The position numbers were made by a program, and so were the translations under genes. From a virus: a DNA stretch of 20,507 nt. Of this stretch, positions 4,864-19,835 are shown piece by piece. Where the stretch lies: positions 1 to 20,507 of IMG/VR virus record IMGVR_UViG_2199352025_000001; one strand, 5' to 3'. Under the pieces are notes generated by a model. It was given only the letters and a program-made list of their open reading frames with translations. It was not told the origin of the DNA and searched no databases. How positions within the stretch are numbered: the stretch's first letter is position 1; every line of letters begins with the position of its first letter.

Positions 4864-6620
4864 GGCGTACGCCACCGCCGGCCATTGGCCCGTTCGTAAG
4901 CCTGGATCGCTTGGACGTTGACACGGCCGACCTCACGCAGATCAGCGCCGGGGGCCACGTAGACGTTGATGGTGTAATGGTTGCCACCGCCGCCGCCGCG
5001 GCCCAGCGGCACAACGGCTTCGGGTCCGTCCTCGCCGATCATCGCCACAGTGGGTCGGGTGACGATGCCACCCTCCGCCATGCGTGGCAGACGCGGAATC
5101 GGGGCGAGTTTGCCCGGGATCGAGTGCCTCCCGGCGAGGCTGTCCAGGGCGTCGTTCGCACCCTTGATGCCGGTGAAGATAGCGTCGATGATCGGCTTGA
5201 TGATGCGGCGGTAAACCCAATCCACTGCGGGGCCGATGTGATTCACCCAGAGGTCGATCCAGAACTTCCGGAACGCCTCACTGTTTTTCCACAGCAGGAT
5301 CAGCCCGCCGACGATCAGGGCTATGGCGGTGATTACGAGCCCGATCGGGTTGGCGGTCATTGCCACGTTCCACGCCCACTGGGCGGCGGTGGCGAGACCG
5401 ATGGCGATCCGCAGCGCGACCAGCGCGACTTGCGCACCGACCATCGCGACCTTCCACGCCACGAAGCCGGTGATCAGTATCGGCAGCAGCGGCCGGATCG
5501 TGTCCATGTTGTCGGCCAGCACCTTGACCACGGCGCCGGCGACGGAGAAGTACGCAGCCACAGTGGAGATGCCGGGGCCGGACTGCACCAATGCAGCCGT
5601 GAGACCCTTGACGATCCCCCACAGCTCCTTCGCGACATCCCGCAGGCTGGTGAAGAACTCGTGCAGGACCGACTGCCCCTTGGCCGAGGCGGTCCACGCC
5701 GCGAAGGCGGCGCTGCCCTTGACCAAGGTGTCGAGGAACCCTGGTCCGGCGTTGCCGGCCGAGAAGATGTCGCGGATCGACCGGCCAACGTTGAGTAGGA
5801 GGGTGCCGAACTTTCCCGCCACCTCAATGCCGTCGGTGATCCACTTGTTGATCTCGCCGGACCTGCGCGCGCGCATGGCCCACGCGTCGAAGCTGACGGC
5901 AATGTCGCGGAGCCAGGCACCCATGCGCGGCAGGAACGCCGACCCGACCGTGCCGATCTGGCGGAGCCCGTCGAGGAACGGGGCCATCGCCCCGCCAGCG
6001 GCCTGGCTGAACTTCGCCGTGTTCCGCAGCGACGTGTTCATGTCCTTGATGAAGCCGGGCGACTTGAACAACGCAGCCGTACCGCGGAACGCGAGGTTCC
6101 AGCCGGACGCCACGGCGGGCAGTTGGGCGCGCAGCACCGGGATGTAGATCTTAGCCAGATCGCGGATGTCCTTGGAAACGCCAGCGAACAGCCCCTGCGC
6201 CACTGATGCTTGGACCTGGCGCCACGCCGGGGCCAGCGCCTTCAGCGTGTCCACGAGTGCTTTCGACGCCGCGGGTAGCTTCTCGTACGCCTTCTGCCCC
6301 GCCGGTGTGCTTGCCATGGCCTTGCCGAGACCATGGAGACCGATCGCGAGCACACCGAGGGACGCTGCGCCGGCGAAGGCTACGGCGGGTAGCGCGGCCA
6401 GCAGCCCGGCCATTGGGGCGATGGCGTCGGTGAACGCGACGGCCTCGGCGGCCGCGCCGGCGATCCCGCTGACCAGCGTGGCCATGCCGAGCCCCGCCAG
6501 CGAGGAGCTGGACTTCAGTCTCGCCGCCATGGCCAGCGCGTTGTTGCCGACGGTGGCCATGTGCGGGGAAGCGGTGTCACGGCCCTTCAGGAAGTTGAAG
6601 AGCAGGGAGGTTTCCGACAC
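4860..6620 (-). CDS. Tape measure protein
   Basis: A 586-residue protein from a GTG at 6620, just after the stop of the frameshifted tail chaperone (TGA at 6624-6626). It has the expected composition: an Ala/Gly/Leu-rich helical chain with a hydrophobic block near residues 41-98 and another near 380-455 (ANPIGLVITAIALIVGGLIL region), which may insert into the host membrane. The C-terminus carries the common phage tape-measure ending MAEGGIVTRPTVAMIGEDG followed by EAVVPL and a Gly run. The protein sets tail length and threads the tail tube during assembly. At about 0.15 nm per residue it predicts a tail near 88 nm, short for a siphovirus. No lysozyme or peptidase motif is apparent, so it looks like a bare tape measure. 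Confidence 0.9.
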   Translation of the reverse strand: MSETSLLFNFLKGRDTASPHMATVGNNALAMAARLKSSSSLAGLGMATLVSGIAGAAAEAVAFTDAIAPMAGLLAALPAVAFAGAASLGVLAIGLHGLGKAMASTPAGQKAYEKLPAASKALVDTLKALAPAWRQVQASVAQGLFAGVSKDIRDLAKIYIPVLRAQLPAVASGWNLAFRGTAALFKSPGFIKDMNTSLRNTAKFSQAAGGAMAPFLDGLRQIGTVGSAFLPRMGAWLRDIAVSFDAWAMRARRSGEINKWITDGIEVAGKFGTLLLNVGRSIRDIFSAGNAGPGFLDTLVKGSAAFAAWTASAKGQSVLHEFFTSLRDVAKELWGIVKGLTAALVQSGPGISTVAAYFSVAGAVVKVLADNMDTIRPLLPILITGFVAWKVAMVGAQVALVALRIAIGLATAAQWAWNVAMTANPIGLVITAIALIVGGLILLWKNSEAFRKFWIDLWVNHIGPAVDWVYRRIIKPIIDAIFTGIKGANDALDSLAGRHSIPGKLAPIPRLPRMAEGGIVTRPTVAMIGEDGPEAVVPLGRGGGGGNHYTINVYVAPGADLREVGRVNVQAIQAYERANGRRWRTP

Positions 6621-6623
6621 CGG

Positions 6624-7183
6624 TCACCCCCGCCGTTTGATGTCCTCGCGCAACTTGTCGATCGCCGCGACGGCCTGGTAGAACTCCTCGACGGTGCACT
6701 CGTCGAGCTGCCGCGGCCCGATGTGCAGGTTCGCGGCGATCTCTAGCCAGTACTCGTCTCGGAGTCGCTCGAGGGGGCTTTTCCCTCGTCGCTCTCCTCC
6801 GGCTCACCGGCCAGGGTGTCGAGGCTCGCCAGGATCAGCTCCCGCTGCGCGTCGTTCAGGCCGGTGTTGTTCGCCACCGCCGCTCGCAGTTCCTCGATCT
6901 CGCCGGCGGAGGGTTTGACCTCGACCTCGCCCATCAGCGGGTCCACGTCCTCGATCTTCAGGACTGGGTGCAGCACGTTCTTGCAGTGCCACAGGATCAC
7001 CCGCTGGGCCGCGGCCCCGCCCTGGATCGCGCTCATCCGCATCAGCTCGAGGGTGACCTGGTCCTCGCCGGACAGCTTCTTGAACCGGCTCTCCAGCATC
7101 GCCGCCCGGGACATTGAGATGCGTTTGGCGTCGAACTCATACCGTGTCGGCGCTTGTCCCTCAGGCTTCTCGGTGATGAACAT
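6624..7183 (-). CDS. Tail assembly chaperone, -1 frameshift extended form (G-T type)
   Basis: This is the long chaperone: 135 codons of the upstream frame, a -1 slip at GGGAAAA (6785-6779), then 51 codons to the TGA at 6624-6626, 186 residues in all. The extension is clearly protein-like (LERLRDEYWLEIAANLHIGP, then a helical DECTVEEFYQAVAAIDKLRE stretch). Without the slip it has no start codon or ribosome binding site of its own. The arrangement matches the lambda G/GT and mycobacteriophage tail chaperones, in which a minor frameshifted product bridges the short chaperone and the tape measure. The tape measure begins right after its stop, the expected order. Confidence 0.85.
6743..7183 (-). 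CDS. Tail assembly chaperone, short form (G type)
   Basis: A 146-residue protein from the ATG at 7183, directly after the stop of the upstream gene (TGAATG). It is acidic and helical (DVDPLMGEVEVKPSAGEIEE region) and ends in a low-complexity acidic/Ser tail after the slippery site, as is typical for the unshifted chaperone. It is expected to coat the tape measure and recruit tail-tube subunits without being part of the finished virion. The N-terminal part, with SMSRAAMLESRFKKL, resembles actinobacteriophage tail assembly chaperones. Identification rests mainly on position before the tape measure and on the frameshift signal. Confidence 0.85.
   Translation of the reverse strand: MFITEKPEGQAPTRYEFDAKRISMSRAAMLESRFKKLSGEDQVTLELMRMSAIQGGAAAQRVILWHCKNVLHPVLKIEDVDPLMGEVEVKPSAGEIEELRAAVANNTGLNDAQRELILASLDTLAGEPEESDEGKAPSSDSETSTG
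6779..6785 (-). promoter_or_regulatory. Programmed -1 ribosomal frameshift slippery heptamer GGGAAAA
   Basis: On the minus strand the codons are G-GGA-AAA, the canonical X-XXY-YYZ slippery pattern. Both tRNAs can re-pair one base back (GGG, AAA). The 0 frame stops 12 codons later, while the -1 frame continues for 51 codons. The site lies at codons 134-135 of the short chaperone, as in many siphovirus G/GT pairs. Confidence 0.9.
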
Positions 7184-13956: not shown

Positions 13957-15216
13957 TTACGAAATCTCGATGGTGCCGAGGCCGAAGTTGTTGGGCGCGT
14001 TCGTCCACTTGAGACCGGTGGCGGCGCAGAACTCATCCAGCGCGGCGGCGACCGGGAACTCCGGCCCATCGACCGGCTGACCGAGGTATCCGGCCATCTG
14101 CTCGGCCGACAGTTCCGTGTCATGGCACAGCACCACCCCGCCCGGGCGCACCCGCGGCACATAGCGGTGCAACTCGGCCAGCGTGTGCTCGTAGAAGTGC
14201 GACGTGTCGATGAACAGCACGTCGATCTCGTCGGGCACGAACTGCGCTGCTTCGTCGGACATGTCGTCGGCGTCGAGGAACGACCACAGCCCCGTGTCGA
14301 ACCACCAGTTCGGCACGTCGACCGCGCCCACGTCGACGCTCCACACGCGCCCGCGCACCGCCGACGCTCCGGTCAGCAGGGCGGCGGTGGACTGGCCGGT
14401 GCGGGTACCGAGTTCGACCACAACCGCGTCGGGGTAACGCCGGACGGCATCACGCAGGGTCGGCATGTGCTCCTGGATGTCCGACCAGGTCGCCATGCGG
14501 TGGCGCATCTCCCGCACTAGCCGGAAGTGCCGGCCCAGCACGGCGGCGTCCTCGGACCGCAGCTCGGTGTAGGCCGGGGAGAAGAACTCCGGCGCCCGGT
14601 AGCCCGACCGGCCCTCCTGATACGTGATGTCATTGTTCTTGCCGGTCAGGTCGAAGCGGTCCTGCAGGACGTAGATACGCGGGTCCGGATGAACCAGGGC
14701 CGTGGCCTGCTGGCCGACGAGTTCGTACCAGGTGTCCAGTGCCGGCAGTGGACAGAGCCGGCCGAGCACCGCGAACACGTCCATGTGCACGATCGGATAG
14801 CAGGTCAGGCCCCGCACGTTGCCGGCGACCCACAGCACGGAGCCCTGCGGTTGGCGGCGGACGATGTCGTCCCACCCGCGGGTGCGCATCAGACCGTCGT
14901 CGCCCCACGTCGGCAGGCACCATTCGCCCCGTGCCTGCTGGATCAGTTCGGCGTAGTAGCAGGCCGAGTCGGCGTAGCCGTAACGCTTCGGCGCCTCCCA
15001 CACCACGTCGGCACCCAAGTCGAGGGCCGCCTGCGCCGTCTCCTGGTCGTCCGGGTCATGCGCGACGAGGATCTCAAGCAGGTCGGGGCGGTGAGCACGC
15101 TCCCGAAGAGACCCGATCGACGCGGCGAGCATGCCCGGTCGGCCACGGCTGGGCAACGTCACCGAGATGACGCCCGGCCGACGTTCGCTCGGCGGACGGA
15201 CCTTCAGCGGGATCAC
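13957..15216 (-). CDS. Glycosyltransferase-methyltransferase fusion protein
   Basis: A 419-residue two-domain protein; the ATG at 15216 overlaps the upstream stop as ATGA. Residues 15-235 look like a GT-A glycosyltransferase: VISVTLPSRGRPGML start, EILVAHDPDD strand, and WGDDGLMRTRGWDD at 104-117, where the paired Asp could take the place of the metal-binding DxD. Residues 245-419 look like a class I SAM-dependent methyltransferase: VVVELGTRTGQSTAALL (motif I, 266-281), GRVWSVDVG (289-297), IDVLFIDTSHFYEHTLAEL (331-349) and RPGGVVLCHDTE (357-368), as in the methyltransferase_24/CmcI-like group. It would transfer a sugar and methylate it or a neighbouring group. The acceptor may be a virion protein, since the gene sits inside the structural cluster. 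It has no membrane segment. Confidence 0.8.
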   Translation of the reverse strand: MIPLKVRPPSERRPGVISVTLPSRGRPGMLAASIGSLRERAHRPDLLEILVAHDPDDQETAQAALDLGADVVWEAPKRYGYADSACYYAELIQQARGEWCLPTWGDDGLMRTRGWDDIVRRQPQGSVLWVAGNVRGLTCYPIVHMDVFAVLGRLCPLPALDTWYELVGQQATALVHPDPRIYVLQDRFDLTGKNNDITYQEGRSGYRAPEFFSPAYTELRSEDAAVLGRHFRLVREMRHRMATWSDIQEHMPTLRDAVRRYPDAVVVELGTRTGQSTAALLTGASAVRGRVWSVDVGAVDVPNWWFDTGLWSFLDADDMSDEAAQFVPDEIDVLFIDTSHFYEHTLAELHRYVPRVRPGGVVLCHDTELSAEQMAGYLGQPVDGPEFPVAAALDEFCAATGLKWTNAPNNFGLGTIEIS

Positions 15217-15992
15217 GGCGCCGCCGGCTCGGCCTTGAGCGTCTCCAGCTCCTCGGAGATCTTCTCCGCGGCGGACTTGAACGCCACATCCCGCCAGAAG
15301 TCCTCTTCGCCGAGCCAGATCTGCTTGAAGTGCGTCGTCGGCACGCCGGTGTGGACGAAGATCGGGATACCCAACGCGCGGACGCGCAGGCAGAACGACA
15401 TGTCCTCGCCGATCAACGTGTCCGTGGTGGTGTTCGGGATCCGGTCGTACCAGTGCTGGCCGTGTTCCGCCTCGACCTTCTCAAAGACGCTGCGGTGGAT
15501 CAGGACGCACGCCGAGCCGGTACCGTCGCAGGGAGTCAGGGCGTTGACCTTGTACTGCGAGCGAGCCTGCCAGCCGTACTGGCCCTCGATGTGCACCCAG
15601 TCGTAGATGGTGGGCGTGGCAACGTGCCGATACCCGCCGGTACCGTCCGACTCGATCTCACGGTTGAAGAAGCACAACCCGCCGACGATCGGCCGCTCAG
15701 CCGCGTCGGCCGCCTCGAGAAGACGGTCGACGGCGTCGGGCCGGAAGCCCATGTCCGTGTCGACCCAGAACAGCCAGTCAGCGGTGTCCTCCTCGAGGAA
15801 CGTCCGCACAACCTTGTTCCGAGCGTCGACGAGTTCGCCGGTGCCGTAGCGCTGGGCGACATAGCCGCCGCGCCCGACCCGGTTCTTGTTGGCGCCGTCG
15901 TATGCCACCAACTCGAGCAGGCTCTTATGCCACGAGTAGATGACCGTGTTCCCGCAGACGTAGGCGACGGTGACCGCGTCCGAGTCAGCCAC
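15213..15992 (-). CDS. Glycosyltransferase, GT-A fold (GT2-like)
   Basis: A 259-residue enzyme from the GTG at 15992, with GGAG 8 bases upstream and an 8-base overlap with the small gene before it. Longer upstream readings of this frame are Arg-rich noise. Key features are an N-terminal VTVAYVCGN strand, GELVDARNKVVRTFLEE (52-68), WLFWVDTDMGF (73-83) carrying the DTD metal/nucleotide-sugar motif (78-80), and VGGLCFFNRE. Near the C-terminus come GEDMSFCLRVRALGIP and a His (THFK), expected in this fold. The enzyme transfers a sugar from a nucleotide donor. Coupling to the fusion protein suggests sequential action, the first sugar here and elongation or methylation there. Donor and acceptor cannot be deduced from the sequence. 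Confidence 0.85.
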   Translation of the reverse strand: MADSDAVTVAYVCGNTVIYSWHKSLLELVAYDGANKNRVGRGGYVAQRYGTGELVDARNKVVRTFLEEDTADWLFWVDTDMGFRPDAVDRLLEAADAAERPIVGGLCFFNREIESDGTGGYRHVATPTIYDWVHIEGQYGWQARSQYKVNALTPCDGTGSACVLIHRSVFEKVEAEHGQHWYDRIPNTTTDTLIGEDMSFCLRVRALGIPIFVHTGVPTTHFKQIWLGEEDFWRDVAFKSAAEKISEELETLKAEPAAP

Positions 15993-16212
15993 GCCGCACG
16001 CTCCGACGCTGGCCCGGCTCCGCGGTCGCCGTCTCGACCTCGTCCGCTGGGGCGTGGCCAACCAGGCCATTGCGGGGATCGTCGGAGAACAGGTCCGGGT
16101 TCGCACGGACCACCGGATCGTCGGCCCACCAGTGCGTGCCCAGCAGCACCGTGACCGGATAGCCCTCCGGCATCATGATCGACGCCGTCTGTGTTGCGTA
16201 GACAACCTTCAT
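15985..16212 (-). CDS. Small conserved-type head-region protein
   Basis: A 75-residue protein starting MKVVYATQTAS at 16212, with GGAGG 6 bases upstream. The frame is open further upstream but only as shadow sequence. The core GTHWWADDPVVRANPDLFSDD (split here at about residues 30-50) resembles a recurrent short actinobacteriophage motif (x-ADDP-V-V-x-x-x-P-x-x-F) in small proteins encoded just after the capsid gene, of unknown function. Residues 55-75 are a charged tail. A hairpin lies 18 bases upstream of the start, and its stop overlaps the glycosyltransferase start, so the three genes read as one unit. Probably a small head-completion or chaperone-like protein, by position only. Confidence 0.7.
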   Translation of the reverse strand: MKVVYATQTASIMMPEGYPVTVLLGTHWWADDPVVRANPDLFSDDPRNGLVGHAPADEVETATAEPGQRRSVRRG

Positions 16213-16287
16213 TCGTGCCTCCAGGTAAGCGGAAGGCCCGACACCTGGATGCCGGGCCTTCCTTCCCTCGACGATCAGGCGAGGGCG
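16210..16287 (-). repeat. Copy 2 of hairpin-RBS cassette
   Basis: This stretch matches 17253-17335 along its whole length: CGCCCTCG start, GAGGGAAGGAAGG, a hairpin, then CCAGGTGTCG, TTCCGC and a short ACCTGGAGGCAC leader ending in the ATG. The two copies differ by several substitutions and small gaps, so the duplication is not recent. Confidence 0.75.
16231..16262 (-). terminator. Hairpin, 10-bp stem, 12-base loop, before start at 16212
   Basis: Perfect inverted repeat: ggaaggcccg at 16231-16240 pairs with cgggccttcc at 16253-16262 across a 12-base loop. No U run follows on the minus strand, so an intrinsic terminator is only one option; mRNA processing or control of translation of the gene starting 19 bases on are others. 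Confidence 0.65.
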
Positions 16288-16294
16288 CGTGTGT

Positions 16295-16624
16295 TTACTT
16301 GTAACCCAACTCGGCGAGTTGAGCGGTGACCGCCGCGGCGGCCTTCTCGTCGCCGTTGAGCACATGCGTGTGCCGCTCGGCGAGCAGTTGGTGCACCGCC
16401 GGATCGGTAGCGGCGCCGCCGTCGGCCAGGGGCGGCGGTGCCTTCGGCTCGACCTTCTTCGCTGTCTCGGGCATGGGGTTCCCTTTCTTTGCGTAAGCTC
16501 GCCAGCTACGAAACGGCTCCTCCGAATCGCGCAAGGTGCCGACCAACAACTCGACGTGCATGCCGCCGCGGCGAGCTATGACGTAGTTGGGGAACTCCTC
16601 GGCGATAACGGCGTCTTCTGGCAT
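16295..16624 (-). CDS. Capsid C-terminus remnant fused to small head-region protein
   Basis: A 109-residue protein from the ATG at 16624, whose GGAGGG site lies across the stop of the upstream endonuclease, so it is probably translated. Residues 11-45 copy the end of the major capsid protein: FPNYVIARRGGMHVEL versus WQNYVVARRGGMNVEL, then W-R-AYAKKGN versus W-F-AYARIGG. The capsid's last 13 residues are missing. From M51 (ATG at 16474, with an AAAGGG site) the sequence is a small protein with a Pro/Lys linker, HQLLAERHTHVLNGDEKAA and a terminal AQLAELGYK, a type often encoded after actinobacteriophage capsid genes. It thus looks like an in-frame fusion of a partial capsid copy to the original downstream gene. 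The fused form, the form from M51, or both could be made. Confidence 0.75.
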   Translation of the reverse strand: MPEDAVIAEEFPNYVIARRGGMHVELLVGTLRDSEEPFRSWRAYAKKGNPMPETAKKVEPKAPPPLADGGAATDPAVHQLLAERHTHVLNGDEKAAAAVTAQLAELGYK

Positions 16625-16634
16625 GTCCGCCCTC

Positions 16635-17255
16635 CTACACGATTAGACGGAGTTGGCCGGTCAGCCGGACGCTCCGCGTGCGCTCGACGTAACGTGCAGC
16701 CTTCCGGAGCGCCGCCGGGTCGTCGTCGAACATCCCCAGGCCGACATTGCAGGACTGACAGAGCATGCCGCGAAAGCACTCCCCGCAAGTGCGCTCTCCC
16801 GCACAGCAAGAGTGATCGTGGTCGATCACAAGCCGTCGGGCCCCGCGCCCGCACAATTCGCATTTCTTCGGTGGCTCAAAGTCGGCGGGAAGACGCTTCT
16901 TCCGCCATCGCGCAGTCTTGGCCGCATGGGCGAGTTGGCACTCGCCAGAGCAGTAAGCCCTCTTACCGCTCTTGTAAGGAATCTGCTTCGAGCACCAGGC
17001 GCAGTACAGCACCGGCGGCCGGTACTCCCTGTCCCGCCTGCGGCGGAGGCTGGACTCGCGACCGCATGATTCCGTGCAGTACAGCTTGTGGCTCTGACTA
17101 ACCTCGAACTCTTCGCCGCACTCGGCGCAGAGCTTCATCGGTGGTGCTTTAGTGCGCCGTTCGGCTCGCCACATTCGCATGTAGTCGCGTTGGCACATGC
17201 CGGCCTGGACCGCTTCACGGCTACAGCCCATCTCTGAGCAAACACTTTGCTGCAT
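16635..17255 (-). CDS. Free-standing zinc-finger endonuclease VII-like HNH nuclease
   Basis: A 206-residue protein from the ATG at 17255, with AGGGG just upstream. The N-terminal two thirds carry Cys pairs for zinc binding: C6/C11/C21, C43/C46/C60/C64 and C85/C88/C102/C106, joined by basic stretches fit to bind DNA. The C-terminal domain is endonuclease VII-like: CELCG (132-136), VIDHDHSCC (144-151) with the catalytic DHDH, then FRGMLCQSCNVGLGMF (161-176), the arrangement seen in recombination endonuclease VII proteins of phages. It would cut DNA. Its location directly after the capsid gene, between a capsid-end duplicate and a duplicated hairpin, suggests a homing role. It is not a structural gene and interrupts an otherwise structural run. 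Confidence 0.88.
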   Translation of the reverse strand: MQQSVCSEMGCSREAVQAGMCQRDYMRMWRAERRTKAPPMKLCAECGEEFEVSQSHKLYCTESCGRESSLRRRRDREYRPPVLYCAWCSKQIPYKSGKRAYCSGECQLAHAAKTARWRKKRLPADFEPPKKCELCGRGARRLVIDHDHSCCAGERTCGECFRGMLCQSCNVGLGMFDDDPAALRKAARYVERTRSVRLTGQLRLIV

Positions 17256-17335
17256 CGGTGCCCCTAGGTTGTGCGGAAGGGCTCGACACCTAGGAGGATC
17301 GAGCCCTTCCTTCCCTCAGTAGCTAGCCGAGGGCG
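17253..17335 (-). repeat. Copy 1 of hairpin-RBS cassette
   Basis: Upstream of the endonuclease start, matching 16210-16287. Both copies place the hairpin 18-19 bases before the next ATG and are followed by an A/G-rich ribosome binding site, so the whole leader was duplicated, not only the stem. The match continues toward the capsid stop with a TAAAC word similar to the stop of the 109-residue gene. Confidence 0.75.
17275..17310 (-). terminator. Hairpin, 12-bp stem, 12-base loop, between capsid and endonuclease genes
   Basis: Perfect inverted repeat: ggaagggctcga at 17275-17286 pairs with tcgagcccttcc at 17299-17310 over a 12-base loop. It lies 40 bases after the capsid stop, where phages often place a terminator or attenuator to lower expression downstream of the capsid. 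As with its copy, no U run follows on the minus strand. Confidence 0.7.
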
Positions 17336-17350
17336 TTTAGTACAAAACGG

Positions 17351-18835
17351 TCAGTGGTTCACCAACATGCGGAAACCGAGATCATTAACGCTATTCCCAC
17401 CAATTCGGGCATATGCAAACCAGCCCCTGCTGCCCGTGGGCCGGTTGTTGGTGACATCGAAGAGCGTCGGTACGAGTTCGACGTTCATTCCACCGCGGCG
17501 GGCCACCACGTAGTTCTGCCAGTCCCCGACGATGGCCAGCTCTGTCGTCGCCGAGGTGCTCGTGGTGGTGTCGTTCATGTACGGCGACTCGTAGACCCGC
17601 TTGCCGAACAGGCTGTCCGCCCATTCTGCTGGCAGGGCCTGCGTGAAGGCGTGATACACGTTCGCGGTCGCGAGTTGACGGATTGCGTTGTTCACGCCGA
17701 CCGACATGAGCCAGTTCGCCGGGTTGCGGAACCGCTGCGGGAGCGCCTTCCACGTGTTGTACGGCGCGGCAGCATCGAACGTGCCGCCCGTGGTGAGCGC
17801 CACCCTGACGCTGGAGTTGGCGGAGAGCTGAGTCACGATGCCGTTGGGCTCGGTGGTGCCGGCGCCGCGGGTGAACTTGTCGACCAGGAGTTCGTTGTAG
17901 CCGCTGGCCAGCAGCGTCTGCATCTCGCTGGCGAATCCGGGGTAGTCCTGTTGAACCTCGATGCTGTATGGAATGAAGCCACGTGCCATGTAGACCGTGA
18001 CCGTCGGCTGCGCCAGAGTCGGCGAGTTGTCGGCCACCGTCGCGGCCTCAGCCTGGAACGCCCAGCTGACACCGGCCGAGGAGACGCCCTTCCAGATGTT
18101 GGTGTTGACGTCGACCTGCTTGGCCAGGGTCAGGAACGGGTTGTTCGTCCCCTGGGCCGTGAGGATGATGCTCGGGTCGATGAAGACCGGGATGCCGAAG
18201 CCACCAGCGGTGGTCGTGCCTTCGGACATGGCCCGGTACTCAGCCCAGGCCTGCATGGCGCCGCGCTCTTCGTCGGTCAGCATGAGCGCGCCGTGCGGGT
18301 CGGTGCTCATCTTCATGAACGCGTCGCGGTAGGCGTCGTTCTCGGTGACGATGATCCGGCGGGCGATGTCGGTCGACTTGCGGACCTGCCGCTCGATCTC
18401 GTCCTTCTCGTCGGACCTCAGGTGCGAAGCAGCACTGCGGTCGTCCAAGACACGAAGCGCCGCATCGCGGGCTTCGCTGTTGCGCAGCCGCACCACGCCG
18501 TCCCGGGCGTCGATGCCGTTGCGGAGGTTGGTGTAGACGGTCTTGACCGCCTCCGGGCGGCGGGAGAAGACCTCGCTCAGCGCGCGGTGCTCCTCGATGC
18601 GCTTGAGGGAGTGCTCGCGGACCTTCAGCCCGTACTGGAACGCCTTGTCCTCGTCGGGGGTCAGGTCGCGCAGTTCGCCCGTGTCGGCCTGGTGCAGCGA
18701 GCGCAGGTGCGCGTCGAGGATCTCGACGAGCTCGCGTAGCTGCTCGGGGCTCTTGTTCCGGACCTCGTCCGGGATGTTGTTGCCCAGCGCAGCAGGGTCC
18801 TTGTCCTGCAGCAGGGCTTCGATGTCGATTGGCAC
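17351..18835 (-). CDS. Major capsid protein, HK97 fold
   Basis: A 494-residue protein from a GTG at 18835 with GAGG about 7 bases upstream. Residues 1-200 are mainly charged helix (SPEQLRELVEILDAHLRSLH and later EIERQVRKSTDIARRI), matching the delta-domain scaffold that the protease removes. TTTAGGFGIPVFIDPSII (207-224) is the usual beginning of the mature HK97-type capsid. Later come NNPFLTLAKQVDVNT, GFIPYSIEVQQDY (286-298), LVDKFTRGAGTTEPNGI (317-333) and a C-terminal NYVVARRGGMNVELVPTLFD. These proteins form the icosahedral shell. It directly follows the prohead protease gene. The last 50 residues are partly duplicated, in diverged form, 0.9 kb downstream. Confidence 0.93.
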   Translation of the reverse strand: MPIDIEALLQDKDPAALGNNIPDEVRNKSPEQLRELVEILDAHLRSLHQADTGELRDLTPDEDKAFQYGLKVREHSLKRIEEHRALSEVFSRRPEAVKTVYTNLRNGIDARDGVVRLRNSEARDAALRVLDDRSAASHLRSDEKDEIERQVRKSTDIARRIIVTENDAYRDAFMKMSTDPHGALMLTDEERGAMQAWAEYRAMSEGTTTAGGFGIPVFIDPSIILTAQGTNNPFLTLAKQVDVNTNIWKGVSSAGVSWAFQAEAATVADNSPTLAQPTVTVYMARGFIPYSIEVQQDYPGFASEMQTLLASGYNELLVDKFTRGAGTTEPNGIVTQLSANSSVRVALTTGGTFDAAAPYNTWKALPQRFRNPANWLMSVGVNNAIRQLATANVYHAFTQALPAEWADSLFGKRVYESPYMNDTTTSTSATTELAIVGDWQNYVVARRGGMNVELVPTLFDVTNNRPTGSRGWFAYARIGGNSVNDLGFRMLVNH

Positions 18836-18860: not shown

Positions 18861-19835
18861 TTAGATCTCGGGACGTAGCGCCACCGCGAGGAGGCGCTCC
18901 CGGATCTCGGGAGGTGTTACGGGTGACGTGTCGCCCTCCCAGGGCTCTTCGTCGTGATCACCGCCATCGGCACTCAGCGTGTCCGATCGCCCGGTGAGGT
19001 CTGTGAGTTCGAAGGCTTGGCGGAGCTCTTCGAAAAGTGCGGCGCGTTCTTCCTCGGATGCCGAGGCGAACAGCGACCGCACGGTGACGGAGGTTTGCGC
19101 GTACGCGGGGAACACGACGGGTCCGGCTTCGTGTACGTCGGCGTCGAGGATGTCGCGCCTGTCGACGGTGCCGCGGTTGCGGGTCCACCGGTCGCCGCCG
19201 CCCTGCTTCACGGAGAACCGGAACGACATGCCCTTGATGGCCTTACCGGCGATGGCCTGCCGGACGGGTTCGACGACAGGGTTGTCGAACAGCCGGCCCC
19301 GGACGAAGTAGCCCTTGGCGTCCTTGTCGAACGTGTCGTACACGCCGATGGGGACGGTGCCGACGCGGGGATCTTTGCCGTGGTCGAACTGCATGACCGG
19401 GAAGCCGTTGGCGAGGCTGCGGTCAGCGAAGCCGGGGTAGAGCTCCTCGTCGAAGTCGCCGCCCCGGTCGGGGATCCGCGCCCGCTGGTTGAACATGGCG
19501 ACGTAGCCCTCAAGGGTCCGCCCGTCGCCGCCCGCGCTGCGCATCTCGAAGTCGAAGCCACGCACGAACGTGTCGGGCGCGGAGCGCTGGCCGTCGCTGA
19601 ACTCGATGCCGTACTTCTTGCCGGCGGCCATGATGCGGGACTTGATCCGCGCGACCTGCGCCGAGGTGTACTTCGCGGCGTTCTTCGGCATGTTGATGTA
19701 GCTCCAAGCCGCACGGCAGTGGGCCTCGCTGTCCAGCGGGTATCTCGCCACACCGTCGGCCTGCAGACCTGGATCTCCATAAGAGACGTTCCCGTAGGGC
19801 TTGCTACTCGCGCGGGTGTCCACGGCAGACGTCAT
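18861..19835 (-). CDS. Prohead protease, HK97/S78 type, with extra N-terminal domain
   Basis: A 324-residue protein from the ATG at 19835, with GAGGTG 9 bases upstream. Residues about 95-255 are the HK97 protease: an EGYVAMFN strand (109-116), MQFDHGKDPRVG with the catalytic His152, IKGMSFRFSV (200-209) with Ser204, and HEAGPVVFPAY (235-245), the strand that closes the fold. Residues 20-78 are a separate region (YPLDSEAHCRAAWSYINMP, then a helix RIKSRIMAAGKKYGI), a small domain found in some phage proteins alone or joined to proteases. The tail, 255-324, is acidic and helical, possibly the part that binds the capsid. The enzyme cuts the capsid delta domain and itself, allowing shell maturation. 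Confidence 0.9.
   Translation of the reverse strand: MTSAVDTRASSKPYGNVSYGDPGLQADGVARYPLDSEAHCRAAWSYINMPKNAAKYTSAQVARIKSRIMAAGKKYGIEFSDGQRSAPDTFVRGFDFEMRSAGGDGRTLEGYVAMFNQRARIPDRGGDFDEELYPGFADRSLANGFPVMQFDHGKDPRVGTVPIGVYDTFDKDAKGYFVRGRLFDNPVVEPVRQAIAGKAIKGMSFRFSVKQGGGDRWTRNRGTVDRRDILDADVHEAGPVVFPAYAQTSVTVRSLFASASEEERAALFEELRQAFELTDLTGRSDTLSADGGDHDEEPWEGDTSPVTPPEIRERLLAVALRPEI

Follow-up and report, generated by a model that had tools for sequence, protein, structure and literature searches.

An endonuclease gene inserted behind the capsid gene of a phage and the diverged capsid end found downstream of it

Why does a phage genome contain the end of its major capsid gene twice, and how did an endonuclease gene come to lie between the two copies? 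The question is posed by a sequence of 20,507 nucleotides (IMG/VR record IMGVR_UViG_2199352025_000001, positions 1 to 20,507), here called the window in its full length, whose source is a soil-type phage with a selfish nuclease gene at the end of its capsid gene. On the minus strand, a prohead protease gene is followed by the capsid gene, a leader, the endonuclease gene, a 109-codon open reading frame (ORF), another leader, a small gene whose product starts with MKVVYAT, and the gene that we used as a downstream anchor (Table 1). The endonuclease contains the DHDH...CN motif and is assigned by its domain to the Endo VII type. The original prediction, made from the letters alone, held that this nuclease had entered together with a partial capsid 3' copy from a related phage, thereby displacing a small gene and leaving a fused gene behind. 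We compared the locus with about 110 capsid relatives fetched from IMG/VR, of which 96 remained after deduplication at 97%; they are designated by L numbers in the following, and the window capsid shares 61-80% amino acid identity with IMG/VR relatives.

Table 1. Features of the capsid locus in the window, from upstream to downstream
Feature	Position	Strand	Evidence or remark
Prohead protease	18861..19835	-	Pfam PF04586 4.7e-19; context
Major capsid gene, HK97 fold, 494 codons, intact	17351..18835	-	Pfam PF05065 Phage_capsid 3.4e-28; PHROG 10 1.8e-31
Capsid codons ~453-494, silently recoded 3' tract	17354..17479	-	GC3 drop; sister pairs
Leader of the nuclease gene (hairpin 1, H1)	17256..17350	-	Similar leaders in L123, L151
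Free-standing HNH/Endo VII-type endonuclease gene, 206 aa	16635..17255	-	Pfam Endonuclease_7 (PF02945) 6.5e-14; PHROG 2633 3.6e-16
109-codon ORF (capsid remnant and small gene)	16295..16624	-	
Diverged capsid C-terminal remnant, in frame with the small gene	16484..16615	-	Profile E 1.1e-7; shuffle control
Resident small gene, 59 codons from Met51 of the 109-codon ORF	16295..16474	-	L008 homology; Pfam CysS_C 1.5e-5
Leader of the MKVVYAT gene (hairpin 2, H2)	16213..16294	-	74/80 aligned bases as in L010
Small downstream gene, starts MKVVYAT	15985..16212	-	Conserved in relatives
Gene after the MKVVYAT gene, downstream anchor	ORF 15213-16106	-	Conserved in relatives

The proposed position of the HNH gene, between the intact capsid gene and a second, diverged capsid C-terminus, was borne out by Pfam, by a sequence profile and by shuffling. 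Capsid residues ~432-479 have their counterpart in residues ~4-47 of the 109-codon ORF, with 52% identity over 46 aligned positions, so that the second capsid end is real and only its extent, previously given as residues 11-45, needed revision. A profile built from the capsid C-termini of 82 relatives matches this remnant at E 1.1e-7. Scored by BLOSUM against the capsid consensus, the remnant reaches 90, compared to at most 49 in 3,000 shuffles; together, these results rule out chance similarity. The remnant retains 11 of 15 near-invariant capsid residues and lacks G437, F473, R477 and I478, which are near-invariant in ~100 capsids. Over the codons that it shares with the capsid gene, its GC3 is 0.79 against 0.80, a composition that does not separate the resident from the incoming copy.

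The rest of the ORF, residues 51-109, is a complete small gene. Met51 aligns with the start of its free-standing counterpart in L008 (MADIEKKVEKPAP...; MADIEKKVEKPAPVPEPP...), and the gene directly after the capsid gene in that relative is 62% identical to it over 64 aa. The sequence AAAGGGAACCCC before Met51 looks like the ancestral Shine-Dalgarno leader of the small gene: it resembles the Shine-Dalgarno leaders of this gene elsewhere (e.g. GAAGGGAAGCCTG in L001), and the capsid remnant therefore seems to have become attached to the resident gene's own leader. Hence the predicted in-frame fusion was found, and the predicted displacement of the small gene was ruled out, as the gene is still there with its own start and a Shine-Dalgarno-like sequence; it appears to have been fused to the capsid remnant with its ancestral start kept, not lost. 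The 109-aa protein has no match among phage isolates.

The two capsid ends had also been described as each followed by the same hairpin. H1 consists of stem-loops at 17313-17333 and 17275-17310, and the loop of the latter, CCTAGGT, is complementary to ACCTAGG (17263-17269), which lies at the ribosome-binding site; in H2, with stem-loops at 16265-16285 and 16231-16262, it is again the loop of the latter, TCCAGGT, that can pair, here with ACCTGGA (16220-16226). The two leaders are indeed similar (63 of 78 aligned bases are identical), but the second follows the small gene and not the capsid end. H2 is the native leader of the MKVVYAT gene, a gene that comes after the small gene in nearly every relative whose sequence extends that far; H2 and its counterpart in L010 agree in 74 of 80 aligned bases, and leaders of the H2 kind are found before the MKVVYAT gene in many relatives that have no endonuclease. 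The nucleases of L123, L151 and the window are preceded by H1, a variant of this native leader element. Since hairpin 2 stands behind the small gene and hairpin 1 is the nuclease's own leader, no duplicated unit of capsid end plus hairpin exists: the second hairpin is simply the leader of the next gene. The pairing of hairpins with capsid ends is coincidental, and the duplication of the capsid end and the resemblance of the hairpins are separate matters.

About half of the relatives have a conserved, strong stem-loop before the MKVVYAT gene with a loop complementary to the ribosome-binding region, for which no Rfam match was found. The longest Watson-Crick run between loop and downstream sequence has a mean length of 5.37 bases, compared to 3.71 (sd 0.14) once loops and downstream sequences are exchanged among the phages, and reaches at least 7 bases in 22 of 52 cases, compared to 4% after swapping. 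Because a phage's own pairing exceeds this swapped-partner control, we predict a pseudoknot by which ribosome binding could be blocked at this site.

Among the 96 relatives, 25 carry an endonuclease gene exactly between the capsid stop and the small gene, 69 are endonuclease-free at this site, and in the remaining two (L181 and L225) the endonuclease is degenerate. The nuclease is therefore an optional gene, present or absent at one conserved site (25 occupied versus 69 empty alleles). The original prediction had taken it for an insertion at the capsid 3' end and had proposed to look for the fused gene in endonuclease-free relatives; neither a fused ORF nor a second capsid end occurs in any of the 69, and the insertion reading stands. 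The endonucleases at the site belong to three Pfam types of the HNH superfamily, Endonuclease_7, HNH_3 and HNH; homologues of the window nuclease follow the capsid gene in L096 (54% identical) and L246 (53%). The two degenerate genes are HNH_3-like (L225, 5575-5958; L181, 2922-3092) with the low-GC3 capsid tract described below retained, and may represent the decaying stage of a homing cycle. Several unrelated nucleases have QLRL(I/V/M)-like C-termini (the window HNH, at 16635-16655, and those of L096, L097, L107, L123, L128, L163 and L213), which we take to be reminiscent of a sliding-clamp-binding motif. Furthermore, genes other than nucleases are found as cargo after the capsid gene in L113, L140, L143, L154, L159 and L214, and for this reason the post-capsid stretch may be a general insertion hotspot. 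Outside this set, GTDB contigs yielded no capsid relatives in bacterial genomes. The capsids of isolated phages are only 31-40% identical to the window capsid, and the four regions viewed in isolates show no annotated nuclease after the capsid gene, with head-tail connector or hypothetical genes there instead.

Among the relatives compared, L123, a contig also present as L240, is the only one to share with the window a second capsid end. In L123, an HNH_3 nuclease is followed by a remnant corresponding to capsid residues ~400-411 and ~432-474, and no small gene is recognisable at the locus. Near-invariant capsid residues have been lost in this remnant, too, and its ORF is open. Both remnants cease being capsid-like at about codon 474-477. 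By their scores, neither remnant could be assigned to a particular donor or recipient lineage.

Most nucleases other than those with H1 are preceded by a second type of leader, GCCGGGGAG-N6-CTCCCCGGC with CACCTAT..GAGGTG(CCCGAC)ATG, which occurs with all three Pfam types (L096, L097, L101, L108, L111, L125, L130, L142, L149, L163, L187 and others). The two leader types cut across nuclease families, and leaders and nucleases therefore appear to have been exchanged independently; a single leader common to three unrelated nuclease families suggests modularity at the level of the leader. In pattern searches with leader DNA, two of the four matches to the first pattern (L241 and L243) were unrelated and due to chance, and the second pattern added L246.

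What arrives together with the nuclease is best seen in four pairs of occupied and empty sisters, whose capsid DNA is 90-95% identical. Identity between L096 and L095 is 95% over codons 1-390 and rises to 100% at codons 421-440; codons 441-494 then differ by 42 nucleotides and not a single amino acid, followed by the leader and the nuclease insert, and high identity resumes from the small gene onward. Likewise, the capsid 3' tract differs by 34 nucleotides and no amino acid between L163 and L161, and by 24 nucleotides and no amino acid between L196 and L203. In these pairs, a replacement that is purely synonymous spans codon ~441-450 to the capsid stop. Co-conversion of the flank is accordingly evident in the first two pairs and in part in the third; it is weak between L125 and L127, where little of the tract is replaced (12 nucleotides, 1 amino acid), which speaks against homing. 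The window has no close empty sister.

The same tract stands out by composition. The GC3 difference between the last 25 codons and the body of the capsid gene is -0.20 in occupied (n=25) and -0.045 in empty alleles (n=69; p=2.9e-7), the drop falling mainly in codons ~453-494, and matched pairs agree with this in 18 of 25 cases (Wilcoxon p=0.001). Against the homing reading, the difference is opposite in the other 7 pairs, and the empty alleles L120, L102 and L158 have a low tract GC3 as well. With a GC3 of 0.71, the tract comes near the nuclease genes (0.74) and stands apart from capsid codons 1-430 (0.92); in the window, GC3 falls from 0.91 in codons 1-430 to 0.56 in the last 25. No association was detected between capsid tract and nuclease family (permutation p=0.90). 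The simplest reading of these comparisons is that the capsid 3' end is co-converted with the nuclease, and the recoded tract of the window would, by extension, travel with its nuclease.

Within the tract, recoding is strong at codons 473-478 and 484-485, in the conserved WFAYxRIGG...ND stretch. In L151, moreover, a group I intron (6410-6690; 38.1 bits, E 2.8e-8, below the Rfam gathering score) interrupts the capsid gene at codon 468/469; it thus falls within the tract and lies beside an Endo VII-type nuclease, which makes L151 a likely further natural case of collaborative homing; the window has no group I intron at the Rfam gathering score and does not fall under this type. Because of the recoding there, the site of the L151 intron and the end of both remnants at about codon 475, we place the presumed target near codons ~465-485. 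Other group I introns (RF00028) are located at capsid codon ~217 in L008 (5650-5902; 77.6 bits) and in L246 (4009-4330, minus strand; 72.5 bits), the latter a phage that also has the Endo VII-type nuclease after its capsid gene mentioned above.

We consider it probable that all this reflects the insertion of homing endonucleases at a hotspot, the capsid 3' end, by which capsid 3' tract, leader and nuclease gene move together, and that in the window the resident capsid end was left downstream. In a mixed infection, the nuclease would cut the capsid 3' end of nuclease-free phages, and repair from the nuclease-bearing phage would install the donor's 3' tract (approximately the last 45-50 codons), its RNA leader and the nuclease. 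Under purifying selection, the capsid protein would stay the same, such that the tract is changed only synonymously, and the synonymous differences could protect the new allele from being cut. In most relatives, the transferred unit would stop just before the small gene, with the resident capsid end being lost. In the window, the right-hand junction would lie inside the resident capsid gene, so that codons ~432-476 stayed downstream, were freed from capsid constraint and became fused in frame to the small gene. The remnant comprises codons up to the presumed target and not beyond it; an illegitimate join or a template switch must therefore be assumed for this junction, which goes beyond simple cut-and-fill. 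On this account, the original prediction would be reversed in one respect: more likely, it was the intact capsid end that arrived with the nuclease, and the diverged fragment downstream is the displaced resident copy rather than a partial copy brought in.

The gene order of the window would be the same if the phage had first duplicated its own capsid 3' end locally in tandem and the nuclease had later inserted between the copies, and the remnant in fact scores much the same against its own capsid (94) as against those of relatives (best 100). We nevertheless regard such a history as unlikely: a tandem copy without a nuclease is found in no relative, a nuclease lies in between at both remnant loci, and the sister pairs show the capsid end replaced along with the nuclease. 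An artefact of assembly, joining two phage variants in a metagenome, might come to mind for an IMG/VR record, but it has next to no probability given that the protein identity between remnant and intact copy is only 52%, that the remnant sits within a conserved gene order and that the same architecture recurs on a second, independent contig (L123).

Other explanations concern parts of the locus. The 109-residue fusion could have been domesticated as an expressed, functional protein under selection, for instance a head accessory or capsid-binding protein, considering that its frame is open, that a strong AGGAGG stands just upstream of Met1, that 11 of the 15 near-invariant capsid residues are kept and that the remnant ORF of L123 is open as well. 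However, chance stops are rare in such GC-rich DNA, the small gene keeps its own start, near-invariant residues (G437, F473 and others) are lost in both remnants, and a fusion or remnant exists at only 2 of ~25 occupied loci, all of which makes domestication very improbable in our view. A further proposal would see the low-GC tract as a regulatory adaptation for nuclease expression, i.e. an internal promoter or a relaxed mRNA structure, and the nucleases as passive cargo at a recombination boundary. It would account for a change that is synonymous only, for the A/T shift in occupied alleles across nuclease families and for the other cargo genes at the site (L113, L140, L143, L159, L214), yet the abrupt, fully synonymous block swap in the sister pairs resembles gene conversion and not gradual adaptation, the low GC3 persists next to degenerate nucleases (L225, L181), and the L151 intron sits inside the tract; we give this proposal as little credit as the tandem duplication.

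Under the homing reading, one site offers a comparative data set of alleles that are empty, occupied, degenerate or displaced or that bear an intron, which allows target, co-conversion tract and immunity of free-standing phage homing nucleases to be predicted codon by codon. The locus also illustrates a route by which homing nucleases may give rise to new gene fusions and recode an essential virion gene by synonymous changes. More tentatively, and with somewhat less than even confidence, we propose that the capsid 3' end serves as a docking site, at which a modular, selfish cassette of an immune, silently recoded capsid end and a regulatory RNA leader accommodates swappable nucleases of unrelated families, and where imperfect arrivals leave fused fragments behind.

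Several features of this locus have precedents. The free-standing Seg and Mob enzymes of phage T4 home without an intron and co-convert their flanks, and several homing endonucleases of the T4 type are kept in check by RNA structures that cover the ribosome-binding site (PMC2988022); homing endonuclease genes are also known near capsid genes and at exchange boundaries (PMC10448857). The present locus shares with T4-type homing the optional nuclease beside an essential, conserved gene, the co-converted flank seen in relatives and the predicted RNA structure over the ribosome-binding site, but differs in that three nuclease types occupy one site, often with a conserved leader. In cyanophage S-PM2, the free-standing nuclease F-CphI, which has an Endo VII motif, is encoded next to its presumed target gene and takes part in collaborative homing (PMC6083498). 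The window nuclease likewise adjoins its presumed target, and L151 adds a group I intron in the target gene; here, however, the target would be a capsid gene and not psbA, and protection in the window would come from recoding and not from an intron. Cluster J mycobacteriophages provide another parallel, as actinobacterial phages with an intron in the capsid gene and many free-standing HNH genes, although the parts of their description considered here mention no duplicated capsid end (PMC3706429).

The closest likeness is found outside phages, in the mORFs of fungal mitochondria, which consist of a foreign C-terminal segment and an endonuclease ORF, with the native C-terminus displaced downstream; the supplied C-terminus differs mainly synonymously from the native one (PMC3630166). 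They are described from atp6 of Allomyces macrogynus, from atp6, atp9, cox2 and nad3 of Glomus sp., from atp9 of Rhizopus and from cox2 of Mortierella, and the Glomus sp. enzymes are mitochondrial and of the LAGLIDADG or GIY-YIG type (PMC3630166). For phages, we found no report of a duplicated and displaced host-gene C-terminus in the open-access literature. The window and L123 both have this layout, with an in-frame, functional capsid C-terminus upstream of the endonuclease ORF and a second, presumably displaced C-terminus downstream, and the window, like the mORFs, would pair a supplied C-terminus and an endonuclease with the displaced native C-terminus; it differs from them in its HNH/Endo VII enzyme, its target in the capsid gene of a tailed phage and the strong divergence of the displaced copy. 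If the docking-site reading is true, the capsid 3' end would be the phage counterpart of the fungal mORFs.
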